From Prevotella sp. (GTDB taxonomy: Bacteria > Bacteroidota > Bacteroidia > Bacteroidales > Bacteroidaceae), in NCBI GenBank assembly GCA_017449675.1, contig JAFTFG010000016.1, positions 1 through 50,576 on the forward strand: a stretch of DNA of 50,576 nt, given 5' to 3'. Below, piece by piece: positions 43,031-50,576 of this stretch. The position numbers and the translations under genes were made by a program. The stretch's first letter is position 1; each line of letters starts with the position of its first letter. The notes below the pieces were generated by a model, which did no database searches, was not told the DNA's origin, and saw only the letters and a program-made list of their open reading frames with translations.

Positions 43031-44485
43031 TTACTCCACGATGATGGGCTTGTACTTAGGAACAAGGGCCTTCATGATACACCAACCGATGAGGTAGGCG
43101 ACAGCACAGATGCAGAAGACAACCATATAGGCGGCTGGCTTGCCCTCGAAACCGAAGAACGAGAAGGCAGCACCCTGCCCGGCAGCCCAGTCGAAGAACT
43201 TACCAGAACCGAGGTTGATACTCATGGAGCCCAGACCACCTGCCATCGTTCCCAGACCGACAATCGTACCGATGGTAGACTTCGGGAACATGTCGCCGAT
43301 GGTAGAGAACAGGTTGGCAGACCATGCCTGGTGTCCGGCACCCAGCAGACCAATCAGAATAGCAGGCCACCAAGCACTATAGGCACCCATAGGCTGTGCG
43401 AAAAGACCCAGCACGGGGAAGCAAGCGAAGATAAACATGGCACGCATACGACCCAGGTAGGGGTTCATACCCTTCTTATCGACGAAATAGGTAGGCAGAT
43501 AACCGCCACCGATTGACAGGATTGTCACGATAGCATAGAGGGTGAAGATCAGGGCGATACCCATCGGAGAGTCGGAGGTATAGCCATACTGGTCACTGAA
43601 GTAGGCAGGAGCCCAGAACAGGAAGAACCACCATACGCCATCCGTCATAAACTTACCCACGAGGAACGACCATGTCTGCTTGTAGGTGAAACACTGGAAG
43701 AACGGGATAGTCTTCTCCTCTTTCTCTGCCTCACGATCCTGTGCCTCGGCAATGTCATTATCCTGTTCGATATAGTTCAACTCAGCCTGGTTGACACGCT
43801 TGTTCTTAGCGGGTTTGTCATACAGCCAGGTCCACAGACCCATCCAGATAAAGCCCAGGGCACCGATGATGATAAACGCCATCTCCCATCCCCAGGCACG
43901 AGCCAACAGGGGAATGGTGGCAGGAGCGGCAAGCGCACCTACTGAGGCACCACTATTGAAGATAGAGGTGGAGAACGCACGGTCTTTCTTGGGGAAATAC
44001 TCAGCAGTAGCCTTGATGGCAGCGGGGAAGTTACCTGCCTCACCGACAGCAAGGATCAAGCGACAACTCAGGAACAGCCATACCGAGATGGTAGCGATGG
44101 CGACAGCGGCATCACTGCCAGCCTGAACAGCACGCAGGGCCTCAATAGAGTCATAGCCCTCGACGGTCATAGCCACCCAACCGCAACCGGCATGCAGCAC
44201 AGCACCCAATGACCATACGAAGATGGCGATGAGGTAGCCCTTCTTGGTGCCCATCCAGTCGATGAACTTACCGGCGAAGAGGTTGGCGATAGCATAGAAC
44301 AGGGAGAACATACCGGTAATCGTACCGTAGTCACCATCTGTCCAGTGGAACTCAGGAGCAATAAAATCCTTCCATGTTAATGACAAGACCTGACGGTCCA
44401 TGTAGTTAATCGTCGTTGCCAAGAACAGCAACGCACAGATGACCCAACGGAAGTTGGACATTTTAGTTGTTTGTACAGGAGCCAT
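43031..44485 (-). CDS. MFS hexuronate transporter (ExuT-like)
   Basis: This 484-residue major facilitator protein of the anion:cation symporter group resembles ExuT-type hexuronate permeases. The family opening RWVICALLFLATTINYMDRQVLS is clear. The loop motif DWMGTKKGY follows helix 2, and VGEAGNFPAAIKATAEYFPKKDRA follows helix 4, giving twelve helices with a longer central cytoplasmic loop. It probably imports glucuronate, galacturonate or keto-deoxy-uronates with protons. Its place after kduI supports uronates. It is the last gene of the gatC-like, kduI, exuT-like operon, 49 bases after kduI. The spacer holds the 16-bp motif also seen before cmk. Confidence 0.88.
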   Translation of the reverse strand: MAPVQTTKMSNFRWVICALLFLATTINYMDRQVLSLTWKDFIAPEFHWTDGDYGTITGMFSLFYAIANLFAGKFIDWMGTKKGYLIAIFVWSLGAVLHAGCGWVAMTVEGYDSIEALRAVQAGSDAAVAIATISVWLFLSCRLILAVGEAGNFPAAIKATAEYFPKKDRAFSTSIFNSGASVGALAAPATIPLLARAWGWEMAFIIIGALGFIWMGLWTWLYDKPAKNKRVNQAELNYIEQDNDIAEAQDREAEKEEKTIPFFQCFTYKQTWSFLVGKFMTDGVWWFFLFWAPAYFSDQYGYTSDSPMGIALIFTLYAIVTILSIGGGYLPTYFVDKKGMNPYLGRMRAMFIFACFPVLGLFAQPMGAYSAWWPAILIGLLGAGHQAWSANLFSTIGDMFPKSTIGTIVGLGTMAGGLGSMSINLGSGKFFDWAAGQGAAFSFFGFEGKPAAYMVVFCICAVAYLIGWCIMKALVPKYKPIIVE

Positions 44486-44507
44486 ATTATTTAAGTTTTT
44501 CGTTATT

Positions 44508-44523
44508 TCGATATTACGATATC
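44508..44523 (-). repeat. 16-bp leader motif, copy 2 (upstream of the ExuT-like gene)
   Basis: Read on the minus strand this is GATATCGTAATATCGA, identical to 3715-3730 and in the same orientation to its downstream gene, here 22 bases before the ATG. Similar TATCGATATT bases occur in the leader of the GatC-like gene (about 46908-46917). Confidence 0.6.
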
Positions 44524-44534
44524 CGATATTTCGA

Positions 44535-45521
44535 TTATCTTAGGTCACTGACTGGGATATTGTCCTTGTCGTTATAGTTCAGGTTCTCACCAGCCATACC
44601 CCAGATAAAGGTATAATAATAGGTGGCAGCAGCGCAGTGGATGCTCCACTCCGGCGACATGATAGCCTGCTCGTTCTTCAGCCAGACCACACGGGTCTCC
44701 TGAGGCTCACCCATGAAATGGCTCACCTGCTGACCCTCGGGCACATTGAAATAGTAGTATGCCTCGATACGACGACCATGGGTATGGGCGGGCATCGTAT
44801 TCCACACACTACCTGCCTGCAACTGGGTGAGTCCCATCTGCAACTGGCACGGTCCCTCCTCCAGCGAGGTGTTCACGATCAACTGGTTGATGGTGCGCTG
44901 ATTACTCTCAGCAAGAGTACCGAGAGGTTTTTCCTTGGTACCTACGATGGTTGCCTTCAACGACTGCACCTTTCCGTTCTTACGACCGTCGAGGGTCACC
45001 CACTGTGTCTTGTAGTGCTGGTGGGCAGTAGCGGAGTTCAGATAGAACTTAGCGGGTTTCTGAGGATCCTTCGAGCGGAAGATGACCTCCTTGTTGGAGT
45101 CAATGTCCTTGCCGTCCTTGTCCTTGCCCAGCCATCCGCGACCGACATAGAGTGCCTCACTATAGCCGAGCGGGTATTCCTGTCCGTCGACGATGACGAC
45201 ACCATCACCACCGGTATTGATGATACCCAGTTCACGGTTGCGCATGAAATAGTCGGCACGCAACTGCGGATGCGTCTCTAACTTCAGGTCTTTCGTGACA
45301 GGCATGGCACCACCGTAGATGAAACGGTCATACATTGAATAGGTCAGGTTAATCTCGTCGGCAGCCATCACCTTCTCCATCACGAAACGGTCACGCAGTG
45401 TCTGTGTGTCGTAGTGCTTCACGTCGGTAGGATGACATGCCTGCTGGAAATTCATGGTCTGCTGAGCAGAACCAACCGAAACAGTTCCCATAAGCATTAA
45501 TGTCAAAATTGTCTTTTTCAT
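44535..45521 (-). CDS. kduI: 5-dehydro-4-deoxy-D-glucuronate isomerase with a signal peptide
   Basis: This 328-residue cupin isomerase converts 5-keto-4-deoxyuronate to 3-deoxy-2,5-hexodiulosonate in pectin and unsaturated-uronate breakdown. The zinc ligands are all present: H246, H248, E253 and H295 match E. coli H196, H198, E203 and H245 with a constant offset of 50 (E. coli positions from memory). The protein is 50 residues longer than the usual 278. Part of this is a clear N-terminal signal peptide ([20 protein letters not shown]), and part is a lysine/aspartate-rich insert at about 130-144. Export of KduI is unusual. It lies 7 bases after the GatC-like gene. Confidence 0.93.
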
Positions 45522-45528
45522 ATTTCTA

Positions 45529-46896
45529 CTATTTGTTACTCTTTTCTTCTTTTGTAATGCGCTGGCGGTTCCAGACGACCATACCGATGGTGATGAGGGT
45601 CAGGATACCGGCACCTACCCACTGGAGGTTGTTTACGCATTTATAGATGACCCAACCGAAAAGTGAGGAGGCGAAGTCAAGTGCACCGGCCTGGAAGCCC
45701 TCCGGAATCTTTGCGGCAGGGTCTTGTGTCTGCGCATATACCGTCTGGGCGGCCTGTGTGAAGGCGGGAGCCATGTCCGTGACGAACCACAGACCAATAC
45801 CCACCGTAACAATACCGATGATCAGGGTCTTCACCACGTTACCCTTCGTATAGGGCAGTACCATCACGAACACATAGAACATGCCGGCCAAGGATGCCAG
45901 AGGCAGGAACTCATTACCTGGCAGGATGACAGCCATCAACAAGGCAAGGGGTATCAGGATCAGGGATGCCACCAAGGTGGTCGGATGACCGATAACCAAT
46001 GCGGGGGACATACCGATATACACTTTCTTGCCAGCCCACTTCTTCTGCACCACCTCCTGTGTCTTCTCAGCGATAGGTTTCAGACCGTCGATGAAGAGTT
46101 TGGTGATACGGGGTATCAACTCCATCACAGCACCCATCGTCACGCCCAGGAACAGGATTTTCTTGATGTCCAACTGTGCCACGGCACCAATCAAAGCACC
46201 GACGATGACACCCAGTACGATAGGCTCACCGAGTACACCGAATTTCTTTTTCAGTCCCTCTGCGTCAATATCAAGTTTCGAGAAACCGGGAATGCGGTCC
46301 AGCAACCAGTTGATGCCGATAGCAAAAACGGTGAAACTCTGACAGAAAGGCTGTGGAATGGAGATACCGTCCATATCGTCATAGTAGCCTTGGAACTTAT
46401 CAGCGGTCAGATCCGCCATCACCAAGGTAATGATATAGCAGACAATGGCTGCGAAATAGCCCCAGGCAAGACTCTGGTCCATCACGAAATAGGCCACAGC
46501 ACCGATAAAGGCGAAATGCCAGTAGTTCCACAGGTCGATATTCACGGTACGGGTACATCCTGTGATCAGCAACAGGAAATTGACACCCAGACAGATTGGG
46601 ATGATCAGCGCACCCACCGCCGTGTTATAGGCGACGGCGGCGGCAGCGGGCCAGCCCATATCGAAGACACCCAACTGCAGGTCATAGAGTTTGGATATCT
46701 CACTCAGGGGAGAACCGAAGTTCGTCGTCAGCAATGCTGTGACAATACCCAGTCCCACGAAACCGACGCCCACATACAGACCCGATTTGAGAGACTTTCC
46801 GAACTTCATACCAATACACAGACCGATGATCGTAAACAGAATGGGCATCATCACCGATGCACCCAGACTGATGATATAACTAAAGACTTGTTCCAT
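45529..46896 (-). CDS. GatC-like PTS EIIC permease without PTS partners
   Basis: This is a 455-residue membrane protein of the PTS galactitol/ascorbate EIIC superfamily. It has ten or more hydrophobic segments, the opening [31 protein letters not shown], and a cytoplasmic segment [28 protein letters not shown], both typical of GatC. No EIIA, EIIB, HPr or EI gene is nearby, and Bacteroidales generally lack a PTS, so it probably works as a facilitator or ion-coupled permease without phosphorylation. Its operon partners (kduI and an ExuT-like gene) point to a uronate-derived substrate rather than galactitol. It is the first gene after the promoter at 46949-46979. Confidence 0.85.
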
Positions 46897-46948: not shown

Positions 46949-46979
46949 CAAAGATAGTGTAAATCGAGCGAAATACAAA
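46949..46979 (-). promoter_or_regulatory. Promoter of the gatC-like, kduI, exuT-like operon
   Basis: On the minus strand TTTG (46976-46979), a 19-bp spacer and TATCTTTG (46949-46956) match the consensus. The expected start near 46943 gives a leader of about 46 bases. Confidence 0.65.
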
Positions 46980-46997
46980 ATAAATCCACATTTATTT

Positions 46998-47035
46998 TAA
47001 AAAAGAGGTCCGCCTCCACAAAGAGACGGACTCTT
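46998..47035 (-). terminator. Terminator of the lyase and small-peptide transcript
   Basis: On the minus strand AAGAGTCCGTCTC pairs with GAGGCGGACCTCTT (one G-U pair, one bulge), followed by six T residues. It separates the lyase transcript from the downstream uronate operon. Confidence 0.8.
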
Positions 47036-47052: not shown

Positions 47053-47247
47053 TTACTTCAGCAATTGTTCTATCATACTGTTCGGTCCACCAAAGAGCAG
47101 TTCCTCATCTTCGCGCGACAAACCTACATCGCCATCGCCAGCATCTCCACTAAGAATATTACTTCCATTAGCAGACCCAGCCAATAGACTTGTTGCTATT
47201 CTCATATCCACGACTTCCGTCTGTGGGGACATATAAACTTTCTTCAT
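47053..47247 (-). CDS. Small acidic peptide of unknown function
   Basis: This 64-residue protein starts MKKVYMSPQTEVVDMRIATS. It has a Gly/Ser/Asn-rich middle (LLAGSANGSNILSGDAGDGD) and an acidic end (EDEELLF). A strong Shine-Dalgarno sequence (AAGGAGGG) lies 7 bases before the ATG. From memory, short proteins beginning MKKxYxxP are common in Prevotella and Bacteroides, often next to exported proteins, but no function is established. It lacks a normal signal peptide. It starts 15 bases after the lyase stop, in the same transcript, and ends before a terminator. A leader-plus-core precursor layout is possible but unproven. Confidence 0.7.
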   Translation of the reverse strand: MKKVYMSPQTEVVDMRIATSLLAGSANGSNILSGDAGDGDVGLSREDEELLFGGPNSMIEQLLK

Positions 47248-47262
47248 ACATCTGCCCTCCTT

Positions 47263-50200
47263 TTATTTAATGATGACCTTTTTACCATTCACAATATAGA
47301 AACCTTTCTTAGGATAGAGCACACGACGACCCTGTAAGTCGTAGTATTCCTGATTCTCCATGTCCGTTATAATATCCTCTATACCGGTAGTTCCACCAAT
47401 ACCAAGGAAACTACGAGAGCCAGCCCCGTCTGCTGTCAGATAAGCATGATTTGCAGTCACGATAACAGTACCTGAAGTGACTTTCGCAAAACCGACCTCA
47501 GCACCGCTCTTTTTCAGAATATAACTATTCTCAGGAACCTTGGTCGAAGCATAGACACCGGTCAGTGCCCCATACTGAGGAGCATTCGAGTTGGTCGTAC
47601 CATTAGAGGTAAAGGTATAAGTACCAGCAACAGCATTGATCAGCACAGGCTGATTGGCTGTAATCACATTCACCTCTGTCGTCTTCACCTGATCTTTTCC
47701 CGCTGTGTAATTTACCGTATAGGCTCTCACACCACTAGGCAAAGCAGCGCCGAAGGGTAATACCAAGGTAGCAGCACCAGCATCAGAAACGGTAATCTCG
47801 ATGGATGTTTCTGTCTTACCATACATCAAAGTACCAAAGCCCAACTCGTCGGTTGATGTACCTTCAGCCTCACCCCAGGAATTCTGCTGACGCATATAGT
47901 CTACCCATTGTTTGGTGTAGATATCTGACTTACCTGCATTCACTGCGTAAGCGTGGAATAGTTCCCATGAAGGGCGAACCGTACCTCGTTCTGCTTCCGA
48001 GAGTGTTGCCATAGTGCTATGATCTGCCACGGTATAAGAGGTATAAGGAACCTTGGCAGCACCATACATAAAGTTGTCACTGGCATCCTTCAGATTATAC
48101 TTGCCCACATACTCTGCCATTTCCATGGCTTTGTAAGGAGTAAACAGGTCTGTTCCCTGACTCTGTGCCATCTGACAGAAAGCGCCCAACAGTGTAATGT
48201 CAAGGGTCGCATGTCCTTGGTCACGTCCACTTTCCTGACATTGTGCCAGTGTCTCATCACTATCCGGATCGCTGTGTGTCGCCACTACGGCTTTCGACTT
48301 ATTACCATTTCCTGCACCATTATTGACATAGTCGAGCGCATAGTCCACCAATGCCTGGTCATCGCAAAGTACACCTACTGAGTACATCGCTGTCAATGCT
48401 GCCAAATCCCAGTTCAGCCAGTAGTGCTGAGGATCTGCATTCTTATGGTGATTTCCCAAGAAGAGGATAGCAACATCGGCAAAAGTCTGACGAATCCAGT
48501 TCTGGAACTTCGTAAAGTCAGCAGCCGCCCACCCAGAATAGCCACGCAACAGTTCTGCGGCATTGGCAAACTGATAGGCCTGAATGGTCATCAGATATTC
48601 ATTCGGATCGGGTATATTATTGTTGTAGCCTGTCAAGCGAAGCATACCCTTATTAACTGTTGCCCAGTTATTCAGGATATTCACTGCGGCAGTAGCAGCC
48701 GCCGTACTCCCCTTCAACTGATAGCGCAGTGCTAATTCGTAGGCCAACTTAGCATCCGTTGCAGCACGGCTGAAATTTCCATAATCCGCATAGGTGTCAC
48801 TCCAGTGTGAGTCCATACGTTTCAGATACTCAACGGCACCGGCAGCAGATCCTCCGCTCTGATTCTCCAAACGGCTGTAGGCTGCTGCTGTCAGGGCATC
48901 ACCAGCAGTGATTCTTGCCTTTACGGCATTGATATCCGCACTGGTATGTAACAACCCTGGATGCGTATAACTGTTGGCAACAGGTAACGGCATAACATAA
49001 ATGCCATCCTGTTGTTGTGACAGACGGAAGGTACTGCAAGAGAACTTGCTGGCATCACCTCCCTCTACGAGTAGGCCATAGGCATAGCCGGCTTCTGTCA
49101 CCAATGTCGTTGTCGACCCCATCGTAGCACCGGTGGCTGTTATCGTCAATCCCTTGGCCACATAGATTGATGGTATACCGATAGCACCTTGCAGTATCAG
49201 TTTTCCACCAAGTTTATTGACAACAGCAGCATCAGCAGTGGTCACAACATTCTGTATCGTAACATTATTCAGGGTCGTCGTACCATTATTACTTGCTTCG
49301 ATGACGGCGGCAGAAGTACTGATGCTCTGTCCATCGATTGTCATATCCTTCAGCGTCAGTGAAGCATTCTTCTCACCAGTACCCGGCTTCACGGTCAGGA
49401 ATAACAGACCGTTCGTATAGTCCGTAGCACGTTTGATGGTATAATTTGCACCATCGATGGTGACAGCCTTATTCTGCACGTTGATACGAGAAGACACTTC
49501 CTGATCGGCAAGCAGTGTGATGGTCTCCCCATCCTGTACAGCAGACATTGCCATAGCGACATCCGCATAACCCTTAGTACCTATCTTTGCAGTAGGTGCT
49601 ACTATTTTCAAGTCACTACCTGAAAGCCCCAGTGCCCAACTGTCATTAGTCAGACTAAAGCGGTCTGCGAAGGATGCCTTCACACCTACGACGACAGAGA
49701 TTCCTGCTATGAAAACATTGTTAGCATTCGTGCTCAACCAGTCAATCGTGATGACATTGGAAGCAGTAAAACTATTATCGTCAACCTTGATACGTCCGTT
49801 CACCTGCGTATCACTCTTGTACTCGGCTGTCGCACAGATATTCGTACCAGAGCAGTCACTGTCAATATTCAGGTAGCCCTTCAATACCAACTTATCATTA
49901 GTCACACGCTCATTATAGAAGAATCCTTTTGCCGGATTCTTACTGTTTTTGACAGTAATACCATCCAAGGTTATCACGCCATCAGCATTACCACCTTGAC
50001 AGAGTGCACTCTGGTTGTTCAGGTCGAAGTTCTGGAACGTGACGTTCTTCAACGTAATATTAGCAGTTTTCTCACGTTTGGTAATCGGATAGGCACCCAT
50101 CTTATTGTTTTGTCCATCGAGAGTAATGGCATAGTCACTGCTACCGACAACCAGATTAGCATTATTCTCATTGGCAAGGAACCACATCTGGTTCGTATGT

Positions 50201-50576
50201 CCCTTGATGGTGATGTCCGCCTTCGGGGTGATGGTCAGCGTATGCGCCTTGTTCCATGTGCAGCGACCCGTCAGTGTCTGGTCCTCATAGACCTCCAGTT
50301 CGGTGTCTGCATCCGTCAATGCCGCAAAAGCAGCATTCAAAGAGGAATAAGTAACACCTGTCGTCTTATTGACCACTGTAGGTGTCTCAATGGTAGCCAC
50401 CAAGGTAGGACGGTTAGTCTCTGCCGTAGCAGTATTAGAACTCTGGAACTTACGAGAAGAGTTTGACTTAAGACTCTTGTCTGTAAACATCAGAGTGAAA
50501 GTTCCGTCTTCTGATGCACTGGCCTTTACTGTTGCCAGTGCCGTACCGCTGATGGTAAAGGTAGCCTTGGCGGGAC
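47263..50576 (-). CDS. Large exported alginate-lyase-like protein (5' end outside window)
   Basis: At least 1,100 residues are visible; the frame stays open to the window edge, so the start is missing. The N-terminal half is built of beta-strand repeats (ITLDGITVKNS, LTLKDMTIDGQS, TTLNNVTIQNV) like a right-handed parallel beta-helix. The second half begins HPGLLHTSADINAVKARI, the opening of the alginate-lyase superfamily (PF05426-like), and includes HYWLNWDLAALTAMYS and CQESGRDQGHATLD as likely active-site segments. It ends in YDLQGRRV and GFYIVNGKKV, a type-IX-like tail. Substrate may be alginate, glucuronan or another uronate polymer. It precedes the uronate operon, supplying a likely source of unsaturated uronates. 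Confidence 0.8.
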   Translation of the reverse strand, partial: PAKATFTISGTALATVKASASEDGTFTLMFTDKSLKSNSSRKFQSSNTATAETNRPTLVATIETPTVVNKTTGVTYSSLNAAFAALTDADTELEVYEDQTLTGRCTWNKAHTLTITPKADITIKGHTNQMWFLANENNANLVVGSSDYAITLDGQNNKMGAYPITKREKTANITLKNVTFQNFDLNNQSALCQGGNADGVITLDGITVKNSKNPAKGFFYNERVTNDKLVLKGYLNIDSDCSGTNICATAEYKSDTQVNGRIKVDDNSFTASNVITIDWLSTNANNVFIAGISVVVGVKASFADRFSLTNDSWALGLSGSDLKIVAPTAKIGTKGYADVAMAMSAVQDGETITLLADQEVSSRINVQNKAVTIDGANYTIKRATDYTNGLLFLTVKPGTGEKNASLTLKDMTIDGQSISTSAAVIEASNNGTTTLNNVTIQNVVTTADAAVVNKLGGKLILQGAIGIPSIYVAKGLTITATGATMGSTTTLVTEAGYAYGLLVEGGDASKFSCSTFRLSQQQDGIYVMPLPVANSYTHPGLLHTSADINAVKARITAGDALTAAAYSRLENQSGGSAAGAVEYLKRMDSHWSDTYADYGNFSRAATDAKLAYELALRYQLKGSTAAATAAVNILNNWATVNKGMLRLTGYNNNIPDPNEYLMTIQAYQFANAAELLRGYSGWAAADFTKFQNWIRQTFADVAILFLGNHHKNADPQHYWLNWDLAALTAMYSVGVLCDDQALVDYALDYVNNGAGNGNKSKAVVATHSDPDSDETLAQCQESGRDQGHATLDITLLGAFCQMAQSQGTDLFTPYKAMEMAEYVGKYNLKDASDNFMYGAAKVPYTSYTVADHSTMATLSEAERGTVRPSWELFHAYAVNAGKSDIYTKQWVDYMRQQNSWGEAEGTSTDELGFGTLMYGKTETSIEITVSDAGAATLVLPFGAALPSGVRAYTVNYTAGKDQVKTTEVNVITANQPVLINAVAGTYTFTSNGTTNSNAPQYGALTGVYASTKVPENSYILKKSGAEVGFAKVTSGTVIVTANHAYLTADGAGSRSFLGIGGTTGIEDIITDMENQEYYDLQGRRVLYPKKGFYIVNGKKVIIK

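Follow-up and report, generated by a model that had tools for sequence, protein, structure and literature searches.

Gut bacteria of the Bacteroides-Prevotella group appear, from the genes they carry, to rearrange a sugar acid set free from pectin-like polymers before it enters the cytoplasm. They would then take it up by way of a permease that derives from the phosphotransferase system (PTS), without the machinery of that system. This view comes from a minus-strand operon of Prevotella sp. in contig JAFTFG010000016.1, the whole of which is the stretch considered here (50,576 bases, hereafter the window) and whose parent genome is 54% complete. The operon encodes an orphan EIIC of the GAT family (TC 4.A.5, 455 residues, 45529..46896), the isomerase KduI with a signal peptide (5-dehydro-4-deoxy-D-glucuronate isomerase, EC 5.3.1.17, 328 residues, 44535..45521), and a transporter of the major facilitator superfamily (MFS). 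The reading that we regard as probable is that periplasmic KduI isomerises 5-keto-4-deoxyuronate and that EIIC, working as a secondary carrier, takes the product in; the MFS transporter would be optional. Sequence comparison established the gene order, the absence of a PTS, the signal peptide and how strictly it goes with EIIC, and the linkage of genes for downstream enzymes.

This reading builds on the association between EIIC and KduI. We drew 151 genomes from the family, each with a completeness of 90% or more save the window's own (family and order were assigned from named kin), and found EIIC (PF03611) in 69 of them, as one gene in 68 and as two in the remaining one. KduI is present in 91 genomes, including all 69 with EIIC, and is the next gene on the same strand for 68 of the 70 EIIC genes (the exceptions are in genomes G126 and G140). 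An exported KduI occurs in every one of the 69 EIIC genomes and in none of the 82 others, where the 22 genomes with KduI have the cytoplasmic type only. Among close relatives (80 loci), KduI directly follows EIIC wherever there is enough sequence (77/77). A draw of 198 genomes of the order yielded EIIC in five genomes of four further families, each time followed by an exported KduI, and a draw of 296 genomes of the phylum yielded EIIC over the cut-off only in the window's genome and in one other member of the family. The conserved core of the unit is the pair of EIIC and KduI.

The export assignment comes from the N-termini of all 103 KduI genes, with starts set by homology and signal peptides called by a home-made hydrophobicity rule complemented by reading by eye (67 of the 68 EIIC-linked genes passed the rule; L184 was included once its whole frame had been read). 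A signal peptide precedes 71 of these proteins, every one in an EIIC genome, and is lacking in 32. All 68 linked genes have one, as the initial annotation had proposed for the KduI of the window; among the 35 unlinked genes 32 have none, and the three that do are those of G126 and G140 and a second copy in G007, all EIIC genomes. In the window, the N-terminal segment has no counterpart in E. coli KduI, and the putative signal peptide covers approximately residues 1-19 (45465..45521), with cleavage placed by eye before QQ. The protein scores 353 bits against the curated KduI model NF002091 of NCBIfam (cut-off 250) and has 47% identity to the E. coli enzyme. The residues H196, H198, E203 and H245 (E. 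coli numbering), which we take to be the metal ligands, are present in the window and in all 81 exported rows except for one R at 198 (rows repeat some genes). Hence, the exported KduI looks active. Across the loci L002-L081 of close relatives, KduI identity ranges from 64 to 98% and that of EIIC from 79 to 98%, with several N-terminal types of KduI. The second exported copy of G007 (L148, G007:C1:226000-244000) has no adjoining EIIC and lies near trigger factor and Clp genes.

The initial annotation had made its idea depend on EI, HPr, EIIA and EIIB not standing with EIIC in one genome, and profile searches of the family sample agree with it. No EI passed the TIGR01417 cut-off in the 69 EIIC-bearing genomes. 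HPr, IIB and IIA, searched in 101 genomes that the listings indicate to be a subset of the family sample, were each found in three genomes, the same three, beside their EI; none of them has EIIC. The TIGR01417 model has matches in 138 of the 151 genomes, of which only those in G030, G060 and G082 (one genus) exceed the cut-off. We rejected the others as EI because only these three pass and because, among the rest that were listed, most occupy frames of about 900-950 residues, the size of pyruvate phosphate dikinase. The models gave over-cut-off matches in 7 (EI), 7 (HPr), 7 (IIA) and 6 (IIB) of 14 control genomes. None of the four components was found by profile searches of the window's own genome, within its 54% completeness. 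In contrast, five plasmid-borne EIIC homologues from other phyla, the five opened of 30 listed, all have adjoining IIA- and IIB-type genes. The lack of PTS carriers in EIIC genomes, against their presence beside PTS-linked homologues, therefore argues that EIIC works without them, and we rejected PTS coupling for the sampled genomes. The three genomes with a PTS carry a compact locus encoding EI, HPr, and IIA and IIB together in one frame of about 600 residues (for example G060:C14:27528-30151); the family sample is otherwise devoid of PTS.

EIIC itself looks specialised. It contains the EIIC-GAT domain (PF03611, 249.7 bits, cut-off 24.2) and stays below the cut-off of the curated galactitol-IIC model (TIGR00827, 375.5 bits, cut-off 542.2); its sole solved relative is a PTS galactitol IIC (PDB 9u82, E 1.3e-79). 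Its 80 best named matches come nearly all from Prevotella or Prevotellaceae, mostly of the ruminant gut. We built a tree from the window and 79 of 87 loci, after dropping alignments shorter than 430 residues, frames with stops and identical rows. The 80 orphan rows fall on one side of a branch with SH-aLRT support of 99, and the branches of the five PTS-linked members, with which EIIC shares 31-41% identity, are very long. Twenty positions are kept in at least 97% of orphan rows and in none of the five PTS-linked rows, and 30 others are invariant, or nearly so, across both. One striking case is E259, an acid within a hydrophobic stretch, present in 80/80 orphan rows where the five PTS-linked homologues have T, M, L, V and L. 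Our guess is that E259 is a candidate ion-coupling residue. One EIIC copy, G031:C381:29734-30893, has a TAG stop inside its frame and is either broken or mis-sequenced; the two pieces of EIIC in this genome were counted once, as one broken gene.

A further clue comes from UlaA, the ascorbate EIIC, which according to the accessible text of PMC6048161 contacts its substrate with His194. By the local motif GxSIx(H/Q), Q182, which is fixed in all 80 orphan rows, would occupy that position; as profiles, EIIC and UlaA align poorly (hhalign probability 11%), and the binding site cannot be mapped from this alignment. Judging from the same text, the two proteins would have in common the AG superfamily, elevator transport and an acidic sugar derivative as cargo, whereas transport by UlaA is coupled to phosphorylation. 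Uptake without phosphorylation has a precedent: a galactitol-type PTS of E. coli is described as taking up xylose in this way (PMC10989795, in the part available). An altered specificity of GatC has also been reported (PMC12089948, likewise). It is conceivable, on balance somewhat doubtful, that a PTS permease has evolved into a symporter that is coupled to ions and serves a single pathway. In this order, EIIC would then bring in the product of a periplasmic isomerase, with E259 as the coupling residue. If true, ion-coupled EIIC would be the missing inner-membrane route for deoxyuronates released from pectin, glycosaminoglycans or alginate.

How might these parts work together? The operon would serve as the point of entry for 5-keto-4-deoxyuronate, the pathway having steps on either side of the inner membrane. 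Periplasmic polysaccharide lyases and unsaturated-uronyl hydrolases (GH88/GH105) would release 4-deoxy-5-hexosulose-uronate, which exported KduI would convert, still in the periplasm, to 3-deoxy-D-glycero-2,5-hexodiulosonate. The orphan EIIC would then move this product into the cytoplasm by an elevator mechanism, as a secondary carrier or a facilitator, and would be unable to phosphorylate it because no PTS phosphoryl carriers were found. A DhuD/KduD-type reductase, KDG kinase and KDPG aldolase would finish the breakdown in the cytoplasm. What we infer in this scheme is that KduI does leave the cytoplasm, which compound EIIC carries and how its transport is energised. The initial annotation had already placed isomerisation outside the cytoplasm and import without phosphorylation; its observation was right and, given the export signal and the absence of PTS, this interpretation is well supported. 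It had named unsaturated uronate as the substrate, and here it needs correction, for KduI acts on the opened 5-keto-4-deoxyuronate.

The genes around the pair fit such a division. We picked 20 regions by hand for spread across genera and for two exceptions, 19 of them being EIIC regions, and counted neighbours by a tblastn-based tally (a pass limited to open reading frames, ORFs, missed some KduI); the families of the reductase, kinase and aldolase were assigned on region L147. In 8 of the 19 regions, and in three of the five from other families, EIIC has a short-chain dehydrogenase of the NF005488 family as a neighbour; a PfkB kinase and a KDPG/KHG aldolase are also there in four and one, respectively. 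Region L150 has in a row GH43, a GH88-like lipoprotein, DUF4861, kinase, reductase, aldolase, EIIC and KduI, and the cluster of L143 includes a GH88-DUF4861 protein bearing a signal peptide; among the 19 EIIC regions, these two are where we recognised an exported GH88. With GH88 and KduI predicted outside and reductase, kinase and aldolase inside, the steps would flank a membrane crossing, with the transporter between them. Genome-wide, the NF005488 reductase is found in 67 of the 69 EIIC genomes (not in G076 and G102) and adjoins 29 of the 35 unlinked KduI genes; in 12 of 70 cases it is encoded within 5 kb of EIIC and in the same direction. We dropped TIGR01832 (kduD) as a marker, since it matched 151/151 genomes and exceeded its cut-off in none; NF005488 worked instead. 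As the initial annotation stated, kduD, kdgK and kdgA are not in the window: Pfam scans of 32 of its 48 ORFs of at least 150 residues and of one shorter ORF, the remaining 16 overlapping scanned ones, gave no further uronate enzyme. Yet a reductase, kinase and aldolase do adjoin the pair in some relatives. The window's genome has a single NF005488-type reductase, on another contig (G000:C17:325517-326314), with no kinase or aldolase beside it. In L216 (6050-7675), a signal-peptide start with no Pfam match runs into the second half of a reductase, probably an assembly chimera.

The third gene of the operon (43031..44485, minus strand, 484 residues) encodes an MFS transporter (PF07690). To call it ExuT-like, as in the initial annotation, is fair only at the level of the family (28% identity to E. 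coli ExuT, 25% to DgoT), and a place in the ACS family (TC 2.A.1.14) is tentative, the best named model, TIGR00893 (D-galactonate transporter), giving 168 bits for a cut-off of 395. The MFS gene comes next after KduI in 71 of the 73 close relatives with room for it, and the three-gene order recurs in Phocaeicola massiliensis (L222, OY725991.1:4458-8503). The latter copy sits on an 81.8 kb record labelled plasmid, with no genes listed at that place, which may be a mislabelled chromosomal contig. Across genera the MFS gene is in only 3 of 19 EIIC regions, and it is in none of the five from other families. Hence, the three-gene order first noted is conserved for its EIIC-KduI part and not for the MFS, which is an addition to the pair. 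In the window's close relatives and some others, its likely role would be the uptake of saturated hexuronates, or else to provide a second way in. One could also think that the roles are reversed: the MFS transporter would import the KduI product, and EIIC would serve another substrate or 5-keto-4-deoxyuronate before its isomerisation. The MFS resembles carriers of acid sugars, it shares the operon in nearly all close relatives, and the solved relative of EIIC is named for galactitol, a neutral polyol. We consider this unlikely, given that the MFS is absent from 16 of the 19 EIIC regions and from all five in other families, whereas no EIIC genome sampled in the family is without an exported KduI.

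The cargo could also differ. Exported KduI might mainly isomerise saturated hexuronates in the periplasm, turning galacturonate and glucuronate into tagaturonate and fructuronate, with EIIC importing these keto-uronates. E. coli KduI reportedly has a side activity on hexuronates, and an ExuT/DgoT-like MFS is linked to it. The linked enzymes that we identified, in a search that did not cover uxaB/uxaC-type genes, nevertheless belong to deoxyuronate breakdown (reductase, KDG-type kinase, KDPG aldolase and GH88), and they make this alternative improbable. Still less likely is an N-terminal segment that does not export KduI, leaving an ordinary cytoplasmic isomerase beside a transporter of unsaturated sugars. 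Known KduI is held to be cytoplasmic, and the case for export comes from sequence. Yet the 68 linked proteins keep a basic start, a hydrophobic core and a cleavage-like end (mostly A-Q) in spite of differing letters, whereas the unlinked cytoplasmic type begins with MKTNYE or nearly so. Finally, that EIIC is still coupled to phosphorylation through an unrecognised donor is hardly credible, because even if it keeps the 30 positions common to orphan and PTS-linked EIICs, models that matched 6-7 of 14 controls found no EI, HPr, IIA or IIB in sampled EIIC genomes, and all five opened PTS-linked homologues (of 30 listed) adjoin IIA- and IIB-type genes.

Several observations weigh against import of the product of a periplasmic KduI by EIIC. 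Ten of the 69 EIIC genomes also hold a cytoplasmic KduI, which may mean that the pathways overlap. A single change of state on the KduI tree is enough to separate exported and cytoplasmic types, and the 32 rows of the family's cytoplasmic type group together (SH-aLRT 93 in a quick search). The link between EIIC and export may therefore go back to one old event and have been inherited since; the split indeed looks like a single ancient change faithfully kept rather than many independent gains. The Fisher values for the association of EIIC with KduI and with the reductase ignore this common descent and overstate the evidence. The NF005488 reductase also occurs in 22 of the 82 EIIC-free genomes, and for 58 of the 70 EIIC genes it is not nearby. 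The window's genome, which is 54% complete, yielded no KdgA, and the kinase was searched for within the window only, so the pathway of this genome is not shown to be complete. The presence of the MFS leaves two candidate carriers there for the KduI product. Export of KduI is predicted from its N-terminus, and two of the 32 unlinked frames classed as lacking a signal peptide, L117 and L123, offer an ATG upstream of the chosen start; in L123, from the EIIC genome G090, using it would add a hydrophobic stretch.

An orphan EIIC was already known. The single galactitol IIC homologue of Bacteroides (TC 4.A.5.1.4) is described, in the accessible text of PMC6281302, as an orphan, independent of PTS, with a secondary carrier as the suggested function. 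It resembles our EIIC in being of GAT type in genomes without PTS carriers, a likeness drawn from the description and not from the TCDB sequence. However, that text calls the Bacteroides genes monocistronic and names no substrate, whereas here EIIC is almost always paired with exported KduI. GatC (PDB 9u82) and the plasmid-borne GAT systems belong to the same PF03611 family, but they have IIA and IIB genes beside them, which the orphan clade lacks, and the five PTS-linked members compared do not have its 20 specific positions. The enzymes that break down 5-keto-4-deoxyuronate are those of the kduI-dhuD cluster (type E) of Bacteroidota described in PMC12838403. This cluster is probably our unlinked KduI type, with its adjoining reductase, and we infer that the NF005488 reductase is DhuD. 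It differs in its KduI, mostly without a signal peptide (32 of 35 unlinked genes), and the main text of PMC12838403, as far as accessible, contains neither 'signal peptide' nor 'PTS'.

The novelty thus lies in the near-obligate partnership with an exported KduI. We did not find this link in titles and starts of abstracts of the open-access literature, and neither 'KduI' nor 'galactitol' occurs in the main text of the pectin papers on Segatella copri and on B. xylanisolvens. Because the partner is nearly obligate, it points to a substrate for the orphan EIIC and to a route for uronates that is divided between the two sides of the inner membrane. In a review on how glycosaminoglycans are used, monomers cross the inner membrane of B. 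thetaiotaomicron by a carrier left unnamed in the accessible text (PMC9067506). Our results would fill this gap in uronic acid uptake by Bacteroides-Prevotella gut bacteria, offering a candidate carrier, a substrate and a reason for the export of KduI in ruminant Prevotella and relatives such as Phocaeicola. They would also provide a natural test of the function of a PTS permease without phosphorylation, and give reason to look again at such routine labels as 'PTS galactitol transporter subunit IIC' and 'gluconate 5-dehydrogenase' where genomes of this kind carry them.

The layout of the locus is as initially annotated. Three minus-strand ORFs follow each other in the order EIIC, KduI and MFS, with gaps of 7 bp and 49 bp, and the proposed promoter is found at 46949..46979 on the minus strand, with letters TTTG-N19-TATCTTTG. 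This site was called with what we take to be the Bacteroidetes consensus, TTTG-N19-TAnnTTTG, a pattern that occurs at 8 sites within the window for 0.67 expected. We surveyed promoters in 65 of the 80 loci of relatives: the strict pattern lies 5' of EIIC in 11, and a looser one (TTG-N17-24-TAnnTTTG) in 27, for 0.95 expected from shuffles. Upstream, a hairpin resembling an intrinsic terminator with a T-run (46997..47035, minus strand, -19.9 kcal/mol) stands between the operon and the preceding lyase-like gene and would close the upstream unit. This gene encodes a large alginate-lyase-like protein (47263-50490, minus strand; PF05426, 37 bits) whose frame reaches the end of the contig and may be incomplete. 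We rejected it as a conserved part of the unit, as tblastn matched it in 1 of 80 close relatives (37%). Between it and the operon, before the terminator-like hairpin, lies a small protein starting with MKKVYMSPQTEV and ending in an SRE-containing tail (about 47053-47247, minus strand).

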